NCBI GenBank assembly: GCA_029338675.1 | Contig: JAQYAV010000072.1 | Span: 1 to 38,507, forward strand | DNA length: 38,507 bases | DNA from: Lachnospiraceae bacterium | Lineage (GTDB): Bacteria > Bacillota > Clostridia > Lachnospirales > Lachnospiraceae | Direction of reading: 5' to 3' | In this document: piece after piece, positions 1,959 to 22,182 of the stretch | How positions within the stretch are numbered: the stretch's first letter is position 1 | Layout: every line of letters begins with the position of its first letter | Program-made: the position numbers and the translations under genes | Notes under the pieces: model-generated | Database searches by the model: none | Told to the model about the DNA's origin: nothing | The model's input: the letters and a program-made list of their open reading frames with translations, nothing else

Positions 1959-3026
1959 ATGAAATTTATACATATTGCAGATATTCATATGGGAATGGCT
2001 CCAGATAAGGGTAAGATTTGGAGTAATGATCGAACAGAAGAGATACATAACACATTTGTTAAGGTTACTAAGATATGTGAGGCAGACAAAATCGACCTAC
2101 TAATTATTGCAGGTGATTTGTTTGATTCGCAACCAACTGAGAAGCAGTTAAAAGAGTTGGATTTTAGACTCAAGCAGATGGGCGGAACAAAGACAGTAAT
2201 TGTGGCAGGAGATCATGATTATATCAGCAAAGATAACAAATGGTCAGAGCATCCATTTGAGGCTGATGTTAAGATATTGTCTAGTGAACAGATAGATGAA
2301 GCATATTTTGAAGATTTGAAGGTTTCTGTAACAGGAATTAGTTACGGACATAAAGAATGTAAGAAGAACATTATTGAAACTATGGCTCCAAAGCGTGAGG
2401 ACACATACAATATTTTGCTTGGACATGGTGGAGACGATACTCACATGCCATTTTCAAGAGAGGTTGTTTCTAAGCTTGGTTTTGACTATGTTGCACTTGG
2501 ACATTTGCATAAGCCTTCGCATATGCTTAAAAACAGAATGGCATATGCTGGTTCATTAGAGCCACTTTGCAGTACTGAAACAGGTAAGCATGGATACATT
2601 TTAGGTGAAGTAGACGAGCAAAGAAATACAACAATATCCTTTGTTCCAATAAGTAGAAGAACATATATTAATATGTGCGTTAATGTTTCTCCTTCAGATA
2701 CCAACGAGGATATAGTTGAAATTTTGGATGAGCAGATTAAGAAAAATGGCACACAGAACATATATAATATTACTATTAAGGGGAGTCTTGCATCAAACGT
2801 AGCTATTAACATGAGTGCAATAACAAGACGATATAATGTATTTGCTCTTAATAACGAAACTAAAAATGAATACAATTTAAGTGAACTGTACGAATGCAAT
2901 GAAGGAAATTTGTTAGGTGAATTCATTAAGGAAATGTCGAAGCAAAATCAAATCGAAGAAAAAGAAATTAGGTACAAGGCGCTTAGATATGGCGTAGATG
3001 CGTTGCTTAATATTGGAGAAGAATAA
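1959..3026 (+). CDS. SbcD/Mre11/YhaO-like metallophosphoesterase (DNA exonuclease)
   Basis: 355 residues from ATG 1959; ATG 1956 is only 2 bases after the GAGGGG ribosome site, so 1959 is preferred. The calcineurin-like phosphoesterase motifs run in order: DIHMG (~9-13), GDLFDS (~48-53), GDHDY (~86-90), GHGGDD (~152-157) and GHLHKP (~179-184). These bind two metal ions for nuclease chemistry. The C-terminal half is a smaller mixed domain, as in YhaO. It overlaps the next gene, a P-loop ATPase, by one base, the standard nuclease/ATPase pair of Mre11-Rad50 type acting on DNA ends. Compared with Escherichia SbcD it looks closer to Bacillus YhaO, because the partner is short and has membrane segments. 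Confidence 0.88.
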   Translation: MKFIHIADIHMGMAPDKGKIWSNDRTEEIHNTFVKVTKICEADKIDLLIIAGDLFDSQPTEKQLKELDFRLKQMGGTKTVIVAGDHDYISKDNKWSEHPFEADVKILSSEQIDEAYFEDLKVSVTGISYGHKECKKNIIETMAPKREDTYNILLGHGGDDTHMPFSREVVSKLGFDYVALGHLHKPSHMLKNRMAYAGSLEPLCSTETGKHGYILGEVDEQRNTTISFVPISRRTYINMCVNVSPSDTNEDIVEILDEQIKKNGTQNIYNITIKGSLASNVAINMSAITRRYNVFALNNETKNEYNLSELYECNEGNLLGEFIKEMSKQNQIEEKEIRYKALRYGVDALLNIGEE

Positions 3027-4714
3027 TGTTTTTAAATAAATTGTTACTTAAAGAATATGGCCAATTTAATAATAAAGAGATAAGCCTTAAAAAAGGATTT
3101 AATATTATTTGCGGAGGCAAACAATCAGGAAAAACAACAATAAGAGATTTTATTTCTGCAATGATATATGGGCATAACGATATCGACAGAAAAAAGAAGG
3201 GCAAGCCAGATAGAAAACCTAATAATGGTGGAGGATATACAGGCAAGGCATACATTAATCATAATGATCACAACTATCTTGTGGAGAAGGATTTTACAGC
3301 GGTTAACAAGAAGACTAGTGTGATGGATGTAATGACTGGAAGAGAAGTGCCCCTAAAGTATAATAATAGTCTTCAGGAAAGTATTATTGATTACGATAAT
3401 AGCTTGTTTGAAGAGATTCTTTGTATTGATGGTTGCAAAGGAAATAATTCTTTGGTGATTTCTAAAAATATTGAAGGATATTTAAGTAATCTTACTTTAT
3501 CGGGTTCAAGTGTGTATGATGTTGAAGCAGCAGTAAACAAGCTTGAAGAGAAAAAGAGTACATTAGATACGTACGAATATGATAGACAGATTGAAAAATT
3601 AGGCTTTGACTTAGAAGATTATGATGATGTAGAAGATTGTCTTAGAGTTGTTAAAGAAAAAATAGATGAACTTGATTCAGAATTTGCATTAGAAACTGCA
3701 AAGAGAAAACGTGAAGCTAGAAAGCTTATTGAAAATAAAAAGGGTGAAGAGACATTTGTTGAAAGTGAAGATGTTAATGAGCAGCTTGACGAATTGGTAT
3801 CAAATAGTGTGTTCCTTGATCCAGACCTATTAAAGGATTATATGCCTGAAGAGAAGTTTACTGACAAAGTATGGGTTATTTTGTTAACTGGTTTATTTGT
3901 ATTTGGCGTAATTTGCCTTATGGTAAATATTGTTCCTCTTTCCAAAGAGGTTAGACAGATTTTTTGTATATGTGCTTTTGTAATCGTTGCAATTACAATA
4001 ATTGAAGGTATGTTTGAAAAAGGAATGTTTTCCGCTGAAAAGAATATGCCTTCTGAAGAAGAGTTTAAGCGAATTATTTACAGCATGGAGAGAAAGCAAG
4101 AAGCTCAGGATGTTGAAATTGATATGTCATATGCAAAGGAGTTCATGGATAGAAAAGCCGAGTTTAGAGCGGTTGAGGCAGAATTCCTAGAAAGACAAAA
4201 TAAAAAGATAGAAATTAAACATGAGCGAGAAGAATTAATAGCAAAACGTACTGCAATTCAAAGAGAAATACATTCTATTAATCTTGCAATTAATGCTATA
4301 CGAGATATTTCTGCAGAAATCAAAGGCAGATATGAACAGATAATTAATTCTGAAGCAAAAGATATAATTGCAAAGATTACATCAGGAAAGTTTACTGACA
4401 TTCGTTTTGATGATAGACATAAGTTATATGTTAAAAGTGAAGAAGGATTTGTAGAATTTGCTAATATAAGAGTTGAAGATATGAAACCACTTTATTTAGC
4501 AATAAGAATAGCGTTAGCCGCTAAGCTTTGTTCAGAAAATATGCCGATTGTTCTTGATGAAGCATTTGTAGGCTGTGACAGATTTACAATAATCAATACA
4601 TTGGAATGCTTAAAAGATATTCCTTCAGATCAGATAATAATTCTGACTAAGAATGAGACATTAAAAGTATTATTTGACAACTTGAAATTAGAATATACTT
4701 ATCATACACTATAG
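3026..4714 (+). CDS. SbcC/YhaN-like AAA ATPase with central membrane segments
   Basis: 562 residues, much shorter than SbcC (~1000) or Bacillus YhaN (~960). Walker A is GGKQSGKT at 30-37; Walker B is PIVLDEAFVGCD around residue 512. The coiled-coil parts are reduced (about 170-270 and 340-440). Between them lie two hydrophobic stretches at about 285-330 (WVILLTGLFVFGVICLMV and IFCICAFVIVAITII), typical of YhaN-type proteins and absent from true SbcC. The start ATG shares one base with the stop of the nuclease gene. The likely complex is a membrane-attached end-processing nuclease; substrate and biological role are inferred from the family. Confidence 0.85.
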   Translation: MFLNKLLLKEYGQFNNKEISLKKGFNIICGGKQSGKTTIRDFISAMIYGHNDIDRKKKGKPDRKPNNGGGYTGKAYINHNDHNYLVEKDFTAVNKKTSVMDVMTGREVPLKYNNSLQESIIDYDNSLFEEILCIDGCKGNNSLVISKNIEGYLSNLTLSGSSVYDVEAAVNKLEEKKSTLDTYEYDRQIEKLGFDLEDYDDVEDCLRVVKEKIDELDSEFALETAKRKREARKLIENKKGEETFVESEDVNEQLDELVSNSVFLDPDLLKDYMPEEKFTDKVWVILLTGLFVFGVICLMVNIVPLSKEVRQIFCICAFVIVAITIIEGMFEKGMFSAEKNMPSEEEFKRIIYSMERKQEAQDVEIDMSYAKEFMDRKAEFRAVEAEFLERQNKKIEIKHEREELIAKRTAIQREIHSINLAINAIRDISAEIKGRYEQIINSEAKDIIAKITSGKFTDIRFDDRHKLYVKSEEGFVEFANIRVEDMKPLYLAIRIALAAKLCSENMPIVLDEAFVGCDRFTIINTLECLKDIPSDQIIILTKNETLKVLFDNLKLEYTYHTL

Positions 4715-15518: not shown

Positions 15519-15689
15519 ATGGCATTCGTAATTGGTGATTCATGTGTTGCATGTGGAGCTTGTGCAGGAGCTTGTCCTGTAGGTGCTATTAGCGAAGGTG
15601 ATGGAAAGTTCGAAATCGCAGCAGATACTTGTATCTCATGTGGAGCTTGCGCAGGAACTTGTCCAACAGGTGCAATTTCAGAAGAGTAA
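15519..15689 (+). CDS. 2[4Fe-4S] ferredoxin, clostridial type
   Basis: 56 residues, the classic size. Two CxxCxxCxxxCP motifs: Cys 9, 12, 15, 19 and Cys 38, 41, 44, 48, each followed by a (V/T)GAI turn; the halves are internal repeats (SCVACGACAGACPVGAIS and TCISCGACAGTCPTGAIS). It is a low-potential one-electron carrier for cytosolic reactions such as pyruvate:ferredoxin oxidoreductase, hydrogenase or Rnf. AAGGAGG stands eight bases ahead of the ATG, an optimal site as expected for an abundant protein. It has its own terminator. Confidence 0.97.
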   Translation: MAFVIGDSCVACGACAGACPVGAISEGDGKFEIAADTCISCGACAGTCPTGAISEE

Positions 15690-18155: not shown

Positions 18156-18371
18156 TTAATTGCTTTCTTTTTTTGCTAAATAGTCATTGATTGAAGCAAT
18201 AACTTCATCAACATTCATTCCATGAACCATACAAGCTTCTTCTAATGATTCCATTGCTGCTGAAGGGCATCCAACACAATGCATTCCAGAAGCCATAAGA
18301 ATAGCTGCATTACCTGGATCAACACTAATTATTTCATGTATAAGCATATCCTTTGTTATAACGTTAGCCAT
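18156..18371 (-). CDS. DUF1858 redox-disulfide domain protein
   Basis: 71 residues. The form is VITKDMLIHEIISVDPGNAAILMASGMHCVGCPSAAMESLEEAC..., with the CVGC pair (Cys32, Cys35) and a further Cys47 in EEACMVHG. This matches DUF1858, also called the hybrid-cluster-protein-associated disulfide redox domain, small thiol proteins of anaerobes that accompany hybrid cluster protein or other metalloenzymes. No hybrid cluster protein gene lies here. It is divergent from the pfl operon, sharing its 379-base intergenic region. GGAGG precedes the ATG. Confidence 0.88.
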   Translation of the reverse strand: MANVITKDMLIHEIISVDPGNAAILMASGMHCVGCPSAAMESLEEACMVHGMNVDEVIASINDYLAKKESN

Positions 18372-18750: not shown

Positions 18751-20793
18751 ATGGAATCAACAGCATGGAATGGTTTCGTAGGTGGAAAGTGGCAGGAAGA
18801 AGTTAATCTTAGAGACTTCATCCAGAAGAATTATACTTTATATGAAGGTGATGATTCATTCTTAGCAGATGCTACTCAGGACACTAAGGATTTATGGCAG
18901 ATGGTACTTGACTTAAGCAAGAAGGAAAGAGAAGCAGGCGGTGTACTTGATATGGACACTAAGGTTGTTTCAACTCTTACTTCACATGGTCCAGGATACC
19001 TTGATAAGAGCAAGGAGAAGATCGTTGGTGTTCAGACTGACGCGCCATTCAAGAGAGGTATGAATGTATATGGTGGTATTCGTATGGCTATTAAGGCTTG
19101 CGAAGATAATGGATATAAAGTAGATCCAGAAGTAGTAGAGTTCTTTACAACTCATAGAAAAACTCATAATGCAGGTGTATTCGATGTTTATGATGAAGAA
19201 ATCAGAAAATGTCGTACAAACCACATCATTACTGGTCTTCCAGATGCTTATGGTCGTGGACGTATCATCGGTGACTATAGAAGAGTTGCACTTTATGGTG
19301 TAGACTTCTTGATTGAAGATAAGAAGAAACAGAAGAATTCATATGGCAAGGTATATACTGATGATGTTATCAGAGCAAGAGAAGAGCTTTCAGAGCAGAT
19401 TAGAGCTCTTGGTGAGTTAAAGCAGATGGCAGCTTCATATGGTATAGATATTTCTAAGCCAGCTACAAACGTTCAGGAAGCTATTCAGGCAGTATACTTT
19501 GGTTACTTAGGAGCAGTTAAGGAGCAGAACGGTGCTGCAATGTCACTTGGTCGTACTTCTACTTTCTTAGATTGCTATGCTGAGAGAGATCTTGCTAACG
19601 GAACATTTACAGAGGAGCAGATTCAGGAGTTCGTTGATCACTTCATTATGAAGCTTCGTATCGTTAAGTTTGCTCGTACTCCAGAGTACAATCAGTTATT
19701 CTCAGGAGATCCAGTATGGGTTACAGAGTCACTTGGTGGTGTTGGTATTGACGGACGTCCACTTGTAACAAAGATGTCATTCAGATATCTTCATACACTT
19801 GATAACTTAGGTCCAGCTCCAGAACCAAACTTAACAGTTCTTTGGTCAACAAGACTTCCAATCAACTGGAAGCAGTACTGTGCTAAGATGTCAATTAAGT
19901 CATCTTCAATCCAGTACGAGAATGATGATATGATGAGAGTAGTTCATGGTGATGATTACGCAATCGCTTGTTGTGTATCTTCAATGAGAGTTGGTAAGGA
20001 AATGCAGTTCTTCGGAGCTAGAGCAAACCTTGCTAAGTGTCTCCTTTACGCTATCAACGGTGGTGTTGATGAGTGTACAGGTGTACAGGTAGGTCCTAAG
20101 TATAGACCAATTACTTCTGAGTACCTTGATTACGATGAGGTTCTGGAGAAGTATGATGATATGATGGAATGGTTAGCAGGAGTATATGTAAGTGCTCTTA
20201 ATATCATCCACTACATGCATGATAAGTATGCTTACGAGAGAATCCAGATGGCTCTTCATGATAGAGATGTTAAGAGATATTTTGCAACTGGTATTGCTGG
20301 TCTTTCAGTTGTTGCTGACTCACTTTCAGCTATCAAGTATGCTAAGGTTAAGCCAATCAGAAATGAGCAGGGTGTTGTAGTAAGCTATGAGACTGAGGGC
20401 GATTTCCCTAAATATGGTAACAATGATGATAGAGTTGATAAGATTGCAGCTAACATTGTTTCAACATTCATGAACAAGATTAGAAAGCATCACGTATATA
20501 GAAATGGATTCCCTACAATGTCAGTTCTTACAATTACTTCTAATGTAACTTATGGTAAGAACACTGGTGATACTCCATGTGGTAGAAAGCATGGTCAGCC
20601 ACTTGCACCTGGTGCAAACCCATTACATGGTAGAGATAAGAGCGGAGCTCTTGCTTCACTTTCATCAGTTGCTAAACTTCCATTTATGGATTCACAGGAT
20701 GGTATTTCTAATACATTCTCAATCATTCCTGGAGCTCTTGGTAAGGAAGATCAGGTATTCGCTGGTGACATTGAGATTGACCTTGACAAGTAG
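18751..20793 (+). CDS. pflB: Pyruvate formate-lyase body lacking its glycyl-radical domain
   Basis: 680 residues; ordinary PFL is about 740-760. PFL cleaves pyruvate with CoA to acetyl-CoA and formate. Visible: [19 protein letters not shown] at the start, [28 protein letters not shown], the active-site pair Cys407-Cys408 in [10 protein letters not shown] followed by [15 protein letters not shown], and [20 protein letters not shown] at the end. The gene stops (TAG) where one-piece enzymes continue into the linker and C-terminal radical domain with RVSGYAV; that domain is encoded two genes on (21074-21313). Each cistron has its own ribosome site, so this is not a simple frameshift. AAAAAAGGAGG precedes the ATG. 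Codon use is highly regular, as expected of an abundant protein. Confidence 0.95.
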
Positions 20794-20817
20794 GAATAGA
20801 TTAATTGAGGAATTAAT

Positions 20818-21030
20818 ATGGATAATGGCTTAAGTAATGTTGATGATATTGTATCTATGCTTGATGACATGGTAGCTAACGGACACGGACACATTAATGT
20901 GTCCGTAGATCCGGAAGTTGAAGGTAAACAGGTTTCTACTATGGGCTGTACAGATTGCGCAAAAGGTGATTTGGCATGCAGCATACCTACACTTCATGAA
21001 GGTATAGATGAGTATTTAATTAATGAATAA
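20818..21030 (+). CDS. 70-residue protein resembling the start of a glycyl-radical domain, with Cys-rich tail
   Basis: Residues 8-31 (VDDIVSMLDDMVANGHGHIN then VSV) align by eye with residues 7-29 of the glycyl-radical protein that follows ([20 protein letters not shown] then VNV): shared D, SMLD, V, G, H, NV, V. After that point homology stops. There is no [13 protein letters not shown]; instead comes GCTDCAKGDLACSIP with Cys 44, 47 and 54, then an acidic end. It therefore cannot carry a radical. It has its own ribosome site (GAGG, eight bases before ATG) and lies 24 bases after the pflB stop. Possible roles: placeholder in the empty radical-domain site, assembly factor, redox or metal sensor for PflA access. 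All are inference. Confidence 0.85.
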   Translation: MDNGLSNVDDIVSMLDDMVANGHGHINVSVDPEVEGKQVSTMGCTDCAKGDLACSIPTLHEGIDEYLINE

Positions 21031-21073
21031 CTTACACGCTTGAATAATTAATAAATAAAGGAGGAATATTAAA

Positions 21074-21313
21074 ATGGCAAGCACACAGCAGATCGATAAC
21101 TTAATTAGTATGTTAGATGGTTATGTAGAAAAAGGTGGTCATCACCTTAACGTTAATGTTTATAATAGAGAGACTCTTCTTGATGCACAGGCTCATCCAG
21201 AGAATTACCCACAGCTTACAATTCGTGTTTCTGGATACGCTGTAAATTTCATCAAGTTAACTGAAGAACAGCAGAATGATGTTATTTCACGTACATTCCA
21301 TGAGTCAATCTAA
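21074..21313 (+). CDS. Stand-alone glycyl-radical domain of PFL (GrcA/YfiD-like)
   Basis: 79 residues. After a short lead and the helix [15 protein letters not shown] come [33 protein letters not shown] and [12 protein letters not shown], equivalent to the last ~75 residues of PFL and to the C-terminus of GrcA/YfiD. The radical residue is Gly54 in RVSGYAV. Added to the 680-residue body, Gly54 falls at 734, the number of the radical Gly in the 759-residue Escherichia enzyme. GrcA (127 residues) is a spare part for oxygen-cut PFL and has an extra N-terminal half; this protein has none. AAGGAGG stands nine bases before the ATG, one of the strongest sites in the window. In this operon the protein looks like an obligate subunit. 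Confidence 0.93.
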
Positions 21314-21420: not shown

Positions 21421-22182
21421 ATGGAAGGAATGATACATTCAATAGAAACATTTGGAACAGTTGATGGACCAGGTATAAGATATGTTGTTTTTGTAAAAGG
21501 ATGTCCTATGAGATGTCAGTATTGTCATAATCCAGATACTTGGGAAATGGCTGGTGGAACCAAAAAAACTGCCGATGAAATATTAGAAGATTATGATCGT
21601 TATGTACCATTTCTTAAAGACGGTGGTATTACAGTTTCAGGTGGAGAGCCACTTGTTCAAATTGACTTTTTGATAGAGCTTTTTGAAAAAGCAAAGAAAA
21701 AAGGCATTCATACATGTCTTGATACTTCTGGAATAATGTTTAGACGCGATAATCCTGAAACATTAGCAAAGTATGAAAAACTTATGGAATATACAGATTT
21801 AATTATGCTTGATATAAAGCATATTGATCCTGAAGAACATTTGAAATTAACTGGTCAGCCATGCGACAATATATTTGATTTCTTGAAATATATTGATGAG
21901 AAAGAAAAAGTAATCTGGATTAGACATGTTTTAGTGCCAGGTATTACTTTAATTCCTGAATATTTGGAAAGACTTGGAAGATTTATGGCTGAGTTTAAGC
22001 ATATAAAGGCGTTAGATGTTTTACCATACCATGATATGGGAAAAGAAAAGTATAAGAAGATGGGCTTGGACTATGTTTTAAAGGATGTTAAACCAGTTGG
22101 TAAGGAAGAAGCTATAAAGGCACGTGAGACAATACTTGGTGCAATGAAGAAACGTAGACAGGAAATGAAAGAAGGAAAATAA
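21421..22182 (+). CDS. pflA: Pyruvate formate-lyase activating enzyme
   Basis: 253 residues. Radical-SAM enzyme: CxxxCxxC at Cys28, Cys32, Cys35 (KGCPMRCQYCHNPDTW) holds the [4Fe-4S] cluster; ITVSGGEPLVQ is the SAM-binding GGE motif; DTSGI and IMLDIKHID follow. It makes the 5'-deoxyadenosyl radical that takes H from the PFL glycine. Length is standard. AGGAG precedes the ATG, 107 bases after the radical-domain gene. Here the substrate Gly lies on a separate 79-residue polypeptide, so PflA must act on that protein alone or on its complex with the body. Confidence 0.96.
   Translation: MEGMIHSIETFGTVDGPGIRYVVFVKGCPMRCQYCHNPDTWEMAGGTKKTADEILEDYDRYVPFLKDGGITVSGGEPLVQIDFLIELFEKAKKKGIHTCLDTSGIMFRRDNPETLAKYEKLMEYTDLIMLDIKHIDPEEHLKLTGQPCDNIFDFLKYIDEKEKVIWIRHVLVPGITLIPEYLERLGRFMAEFKHIKALDVLPYHDMGKEKYKKMGLDYVLKDVKPVGKEEAIKARETILGAMKKRRQEMKEGK

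Follow-up and report, generated by a model that had tools for sequence, protein, structure and literature searches.

A pyruvate formate-lyase encoded in parts in Lachnospiraceae, with a stand-alone glycyl-radical domain and a small unnamed protein as its candidate third component

Pyruvate formate-lyase (PFL) makes formate and acetyl-CoA in fermentation. In the 38,507-nucleotide stretch of DNA analysed here (contig JAQYAV010000072.1 of a Lachnospiraceae bacterium, hereafter the window), we found PFL encoded in pieces on one strand, in the order of a catalytic body, a 70-residue unnamed protein (designated MID), a stand-alone glycyl-radical domain and a PFL activase (Table 1). The body scored 1098.8 bits against TIGR01255 (cut-off, 994.2), over profile positions 1-665 of 744, and matched only the first half of PF01228 (2-51 of 106). 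It thus has the score and the adjacent Cys-Cys of a TIGR01255 member, but the glycyl radical domain is absent from the same chain. The 79-residue protein scored 163.6 bits against NF038360 (GrcA3; cut-off, 158) and 97 bits against the GrcA profile TIGR04365, below the cut-off of 170 and over profile positions 67-126 only. The alignment placed the break between body residue 670, corresponding to residue 681 of Escherichia coli PFL, and domain residue 8, corresponding to residue 683, and the final ~10 residues of the body are an extension that does not belong to PFL. The body ending before the radical domain and the separate domain gene with its own ribosome site had already been recognised in a preliminary description of this DNA, and both are borne out by the reading frames and profiles. 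The agreement noted there between 680 + 54 = 734 and the radical-Gly position of one-piece Escherichia PFL proved to be a coincidence, as the alignment sets the break at 681/683, and the 70-residue reading frame between the halves had been overlooked.

Table 1. Features of the PFL locus (positions in the window)
Feature	Positions	Strand	Basis
PFL catalytic body without radical domain, 680 aa	18751-20793	+	PF02901, 1.3e-214; TIGR01255 positions 1-665 of 744, above cut-off
Cys407-Cys408 codons of the body	19969-19974	+	pair invariant in 18 chains of alignment A4
C-terminal end of the split body, mostly an extension absent from one-piece PFL	20746-20790	+	end comparison
MID, 70-aa unnamed protein	20818-21030	+	residues 1-29 homologous to the radical-domain N-terminus; no glycyl loop
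MID cysteine tail (Cys44, Cys47, Cys54, IPTLHEGID)	20947-21009	+	Cys47 and Cys54 invariant in 12 rows of alignment A1
AAGGAGG ribosome site of the radical-domain gene	21058-21064	+	read from the sequence
Stand-alone glycyl-radical domain, 79 aa, NCBIfam GrcA3	21074-21313	+	profile match
Gly54 codon (RVSGYAV), expected radical site	21233-21235	+	aligns with RVSGYAV of E. coli PFL
PFL-activating radical-SAM enzyme	21421-22182	+	TIGR02493, 295.7 bits; cut-off 231.75

Two small cysteine-bearing proteins are encoded near the operon. Divergent from it, at 18156-18371 on the minus strand, is a small CxxC protein of TIGR03980 ("hybrid cluster protein-associated redox disulfide"), and at 15519-15689 on the plus strand is a 56-residue cysteine-rich protein that resembles, by eye, a small 2[4Fe-4S] ferredoxin. 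A gene similar to that of the CxxC protein occurs in 19 of 54 related loci longer than 7 kb. With just this count, the DUF1858 neighbour was not taken as a part of the system.

The genome assembly containing the window comprises 2.85 Mb in 171 contigs and is 99.97% complete. Searches of this genome returned one PFL body, and neither an intact PFL of about 750 residues nor a second body was found in it. The other radical-domain matches in this genome were an NrdD-like protein recognised by eye (L003, on contig C41) and one match of 16 bits below the cut-off. No single-chain pyruvate:ferredoxin oxidoreductase scored above the cut-off, and three partial matches lay on contig C68. One possible explanation for a separate domain is that it serves as a mere repair part in the manner of GrcA/YfiD, the work being done by an intact PFL, as the NCBIfam name "autonomous glycyl radical cofactor GrcA3" and the closeness of the sequence to GrcA might imply. 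However, the failure to find an intact PFL or a second body in so complete an assembly, and the fact that bodies throughout the split clade stop before the domain, make this explanation highly improbable. On the showing of this assembly, there is no intact enzyme for which the separate domain could be a spare. Together with the conservation of the split as a clade, this supports the earlier proposal that the 79-residue protein is an obligate subunit.

The same split recurs in related genomes. Among 24 same-genus loci with a body end (L006-L029), body, MID and domain follow one another in 23, the domain of L012 being cut by a contig end; locus L027 stops inside MID. The remaining same-genus body matches were fragments or lay outside this set, that of G035 being a 785-residue frame with 62% identity. 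No body match was found in the same-genus genomes G002, G006, G012 and G018; G006 is a single contig of 99% completeness, which implies that some relatives can do without the enzyme. When the genome collection was scanned with a MID profile, 315 patterns matched and 166 places were confirmed; among the best 80 of these 166, 79 had MID flanked by a PFL body (or its end) on one side and a separate domain on the other. The one exception (L103) was cut by a contig end, and at L076 the body was read in two frames. A named carrier of the split with MID is Eubacterium ruminantium ATCC 17233 (L080).

We then surveyed 294 genomes of the order, each at least 85% complete. A TIGR01255 match at 1e-20 was obtained in 246 genomes, and a stand-alone domain (frame below 200 aa) was listed in 67. 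The MID profile matched in 84 genomes at E 0.01, of which 53 matches were strong (2.1e-10 or better); the other 31 reached at most about 28 bits and mostly covered residues 1-30, that is, the N-terminus of the radical domain itself. All 53 genomes with a strong MID were among the 67 with a stand-alone domain, and no strong MID was found outside them; the 53 include G299 and G313, whose MIDs are unusual in length and in location, respectively. In a phylum sample, in whose table six genomes of the order are named, two of 398 genomes had MID, both belonging to the genus of the window. These two MID-bearing genomes were also the only ones to pass the GrcA3 cut-off among 299 phylum genomes; the remaining matches listed in that scan were mostly frames above 700 aa, with shorter frames in G357, G456, G517, G521, G560, G564 and G612.

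In a first tree of bodies (44 split and 29 intact rows), the split bodies fell on one side of a supported branch (SH-aLRT 99), and in a second tree (44 split and 6 intact rows) the branch between split and intact bodies had a support of 100/100, the intact rows being mostly top-scoring TIGR01255 matches rather than a random draw. For these trees the MID rows were thinned from 80 distinct sequences to 32, and L027 and L103 were excluded. Judged by these trees, the split is old and has a single origin. An assembly or sequencing error was considered as the cause of the split and rejected, because dozens of species share the same break while the frame of the domain relative to the body differs among them. 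Another possibility, that readthrough or frameshifting rejoins the pieces into one chain, would be in line with the reading frames sharing one frame in some loci. However, full bodies were in frame at 36 of 135 MID-bearing body loci (duplicates included), which is about the chance level, the frames of the domain vary, and every placeable domain gene has a ribosome site of its own, so that rejoining is scarcely conceivable. Among placeable starts in the window and the best 80 of 166 loci, GGAGG was found upstream of 66 of 66 bodies, 79 of 79 domains and 30 of 76 MIDs. Since GGAGG is rarer before MID, these upstream sequences suggest that MID may be made in smaller amounts. The idea that the domain is made in excess, which had been drawn from its ribosome site, was not sustained, the site of the body being equally strong.

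We next examined MID itself. Residues 1-29 of MID showed 41% identity to the first 29 residues of the radical domain (hhalign; probability, 96; E 3.8e-9), indicating a homologous N-terminal helix-strand, and the RVSGYAV glycyl loop of PF01228 members is absent; beyond residue 29, a tail with conserved cysteines takes its place. The 12 aligned MIDs come from three families (f1, f11 and f22) and all retain Cys47, Cys54, Pro57, Thr58, Leu59, Gly62 and Asp64 (window numbering); a fourth family of the order, f8, also has a MID (G076). Some further MIDs vary at Asp46, Ala53, Leu59 or Gly62 and retain both cysteines, except for a truncated copy in G299 (L167:2147-2314, minus strand), which stops after GCTDCAK, before the second conserved cysteine, and is followed by an intact domain gene. 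Cys44 is found in only part of the MIDs. In G313, MID (L188:2916-3125) stands alone, about 370 kb from split PFL genes arranged as body, activase and domain (L174). The median dN/dS of MID was 0.088 (22 sequences; 153 unsaturated of 230 pairs kept), and that of the radical domain was 0.040 (222 of 225 pairs). By this measure MID is under purifying selection, and its interpretation as a pseudogene was rejected. The missing glycyl loop and the truncated G299 copy might otherwise have suggested a decaying, functionless duplicate of the radical-domain gene. In view of the low dN/dS, the invariant cysteines in MIDs from three families, the occurrence of MID in four families of the order and its co-occurrence with a stand-alone domain in 53 of 53 genomes, we regard such decay as extremely improbable.

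MID matched nothing in Pfam or PHROGs, and in NCBIfam it matched GrcA3 only, with its N-terminus and below the cut-off. There was no credible match in the PDB and none in the plasmid collection, and 142 pattern matches in viral contigs yielded no confirmed MID. The tail alone matched just two ferredoxins in the PDB, with E values (0.64 and 0.72) to be expected by chance. A structure model of body plus MID had a mean pLDDT of 40.5 and was too poor to use, probably because its input alignment held 18 similar rows. Like the beta and gamma subunits of BSS and the small subunit of HPAD, MID is a small cysteine-bearing partner of a glycyl-radical enzyme, and it could in principle be an iron-sulfur accessory subunit of that kind which controls the lifetime of the radical. 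HiPIP-like accessory subunits of glycyl-radical enzymes have four cluster-ligand cysteines. MID has just two that are invariant in the 12 aligned sequences, too few for it to have its own [4Fe-4S] cluster. According to the accessible part of PMC12590467, the BSS and HPAD subunits carry peripheral [4Fe-4S] clusters, and BSS beta controls thiyl radical formation, whereas MID is a relative of the radical domain by its N-terminus and matches no family. We consider this interpretation improbable, the chance-level ferredoxin matches notwithstanding. The alanyl, seryl and threonyl radical enzymes covered by the available portion of PMC11528403 were also considered and have no bearing on MID.

The function of the MID tail was further assessed from the 14 split genomes that lack MID, of which 13 were readable, the body end of G270 lying on another contig. 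In 12 of the 13, the body itself ends in a tail with at least two cysteines, such as DCACCEPN, DCLCCEPN, ECGNQACNIPN and ECGVDSACAIPN; 12 of 13 is the fair figure, since the label "tail" was defined by the cysteine count itself. The exception among the 13 was G204 (L171), whose body has no two-cysteine tail and forms a rather long branch in the trees. Among MID-bearing bodies, cysteine was found in the end of 0 of 108 (43 distinct ends; some loci counted twice). On the tree, the tail requires four changes and MID three. In three independent pairs on supported branches, tail and MID went in opposite directions in an average of 2.9 pairs (median p, 0.25), a test that cannot reach significance with just three pairs. 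The cysteine spacing of tails and MIDs ranges from C-x-C-C to C-x6-C and, because of this variation, does not support a fixed cysteine chemistry. We read this distribution as suggesting that a cysteine tail near the body end is one function met in two ways, by MID or by a fused tail.

These data also bear on whether MID might act as a recruiting or activation adaptor, which would supply a strand element in trans, like residues 696-733 of E. coli PFL, with its cysteines being secondary. In the accessible part of PMC8683613, E. coli PFL truncated at 695 is as active with YfiD as the wild type once activated, but its activation through YfiD is 32-fold lower and binding is no longer measurable, because residues 696-733 help YfiD bind. 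The homologous helix-strand of MID would suit such a role. However, the MID-less lineages have the cysteine tail on the body without any added helix-strand, pointing to the tail as the essential part, and we consider the adaptor explanation rather unlikely. Since the truncated E. coli enzyme loses measurable YfiD binding, a naturally separate domain must also dock better than YfiD does there.

We prefer the hypothesis of a multi-part PFL, in which the radical subunit is obligate, replaceable and supplied in trans, and MID is a third component acting as a dithiol arm seated in the radical socket; we give it a probability of about one in two. According to this hypothesis, the body would hold the substrate site and Cys407/Cys408, the 79-residue subunit would dock in the radical socket of the body, and the neighbouring activase would provide that subunit with its glycyl radical, so that catalysis would start in trans. 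Being a separate chain, a subunit cleaved by oxygen could be exchanged while the body is kept. In the absence of the radical subunit, the radical-domain-like helix and strand of MID may target the same socket, and its two-cysteine tail may then be a dithiol arm for the exposed active site, one that would keep Cys407/Cys408 reduced, return them to that state, or cap the cavity until the radical subunit displaces MID. In lineages without MID, the cysteine tail on the body itself would play the part of the arm. We favour a dithiol arm over a strand element in trans because the tail alone appears to stand in for MID. A precedent for such chemistry is class I ribonucleotide reductase, in which a flexible C-terminal dithiol tail reduces the active-site disulfide; the likeness to the MID tail is an analogy only, and no sequence relation is claimed. 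More tentatively, the whole may be viewed as a reloadable enzyme with a consumable radical domain, in which MID as a mimic fills the empty socket and offers the catalytic cysteine pair a dithiol as a cap or reductant. This function would be important enough for lineages without MID to bear a cysteine tail on the body, on three or four separate occasions in the tree; this broader picture is possible but doubtful.

The closest known system is E. coli PflB with GrcA/YfiD, which shares the body family, the Cys-Cys pair, the RVSGYAV domain, the activase and a domain that works in trans on truncated PFL. GrcA also supports formate production by G734A PflB, as stated in the accessible text of PMC12338860. 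There, however, the domain serves to repair an enzyme made in one piece, whereas here no one-piece enzyme was found and MID is present. The 79-residue domain also lacks the long N-terminal half of YfiD, the aligned part being YfiD 68-127. By score it is a member of NF038360, but the name of that family implies an autonomous repair cofactor, while the context here indicates an obligate subunit. As compared by alignment alone, the closest solved relatives of the body are PDB 38LA and 38LB ("Formate acetyltransferase"), neither of which was matched by the radical-domain query at E 0.01. The chain of 38LB runs on into FGECDMCEMKELD, a cysteine-bearing end whose best matches in the order are split bodies, and that of 38LA, which may have been trimmed as a construct, stops at LGKED. 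Neither a MID nor a radical-domain chain was found with 38LA or 38LB by sequence.

Since NCBI names GrcA3 and the PDB holds PFL chains without a radical domain, the split is already known to databases; no published split PFL was recognised in a literature search whose reach excluded most subscription papers. MID and its exchange for a body tail appear to be undescribed in the searchable literature. Anas et al. note, in the available part of PMC12590467, that glycyl-radical enzymes may have more accessory subunits which are still unidentified or unannotated, and MID is a candidate for such a subunit. In many gut and rumen bacteria this central enzyme of fermentation is encoded as separate proteins, its oxygen-sensitive radical part being one of them and the gene of a small two-cysteine protein lying between the halves. 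This natural split with an unnamed partner offers a direct test of how a radical enzyme killed by oxygen can be kept in service and of how the radical domain leaves its place to be activated, and the test is practical because named carriers include the E. ruminantium strain mentioned above.

The exchangeability of the subunit, which had likewise been proposed earlier, receives circumstantial support from second domain genes. Two stand-alone domains were found in 8 genomes of the order survey. In G143 the second one belongs to a second set of MID, domain and activase at a contig end (L189), and 7 of the 67 genomes carrying stand-alone domains have a second domain gene with no PFL body next to it. 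Six second domain genes had listed neighbours, and two of the six were beside rubrerythrin, in G233 preceding thioredoxin and rubrerythrin (L180:3234-4438) and in G242 divergent from desulfoferrodoxin and rubrerythrin (L179:1884-3610). The other four had no recognised oxygen-defence neighbour; the two neighbours scanned there encode a stage III sporulation protein (L177) and a PadR regulator (L173).

Domain genes were also found on viral contigs. L225 (144,741 bases) encodes at 2998-3231 a 78-residue domain, 79% identical to that of the window, which scored 159 bits against the GrcA3 cut-off of 158 and lies near exonuclease and helicase genes. L226 (166,546 bases) encodes at 2998-3228 a 77-residue domain, 76% identical to that of the window, which scored 150.9 bits, below the GrcA3 cut-off. 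The other 29 viral domain loci matched from residue 20 onward only, and the two that were read are of the longer GrcA type (120-122 aa). Large phages perhaps resupply the split PFL of their hosts. A scan of viral contigs with the PFL body gave 10 PFL loci, and the PFL genes on L263 (132,525 bases) and L259 (233,329 bases), both labelled viral, are either phage genes or bacterial carry-over.
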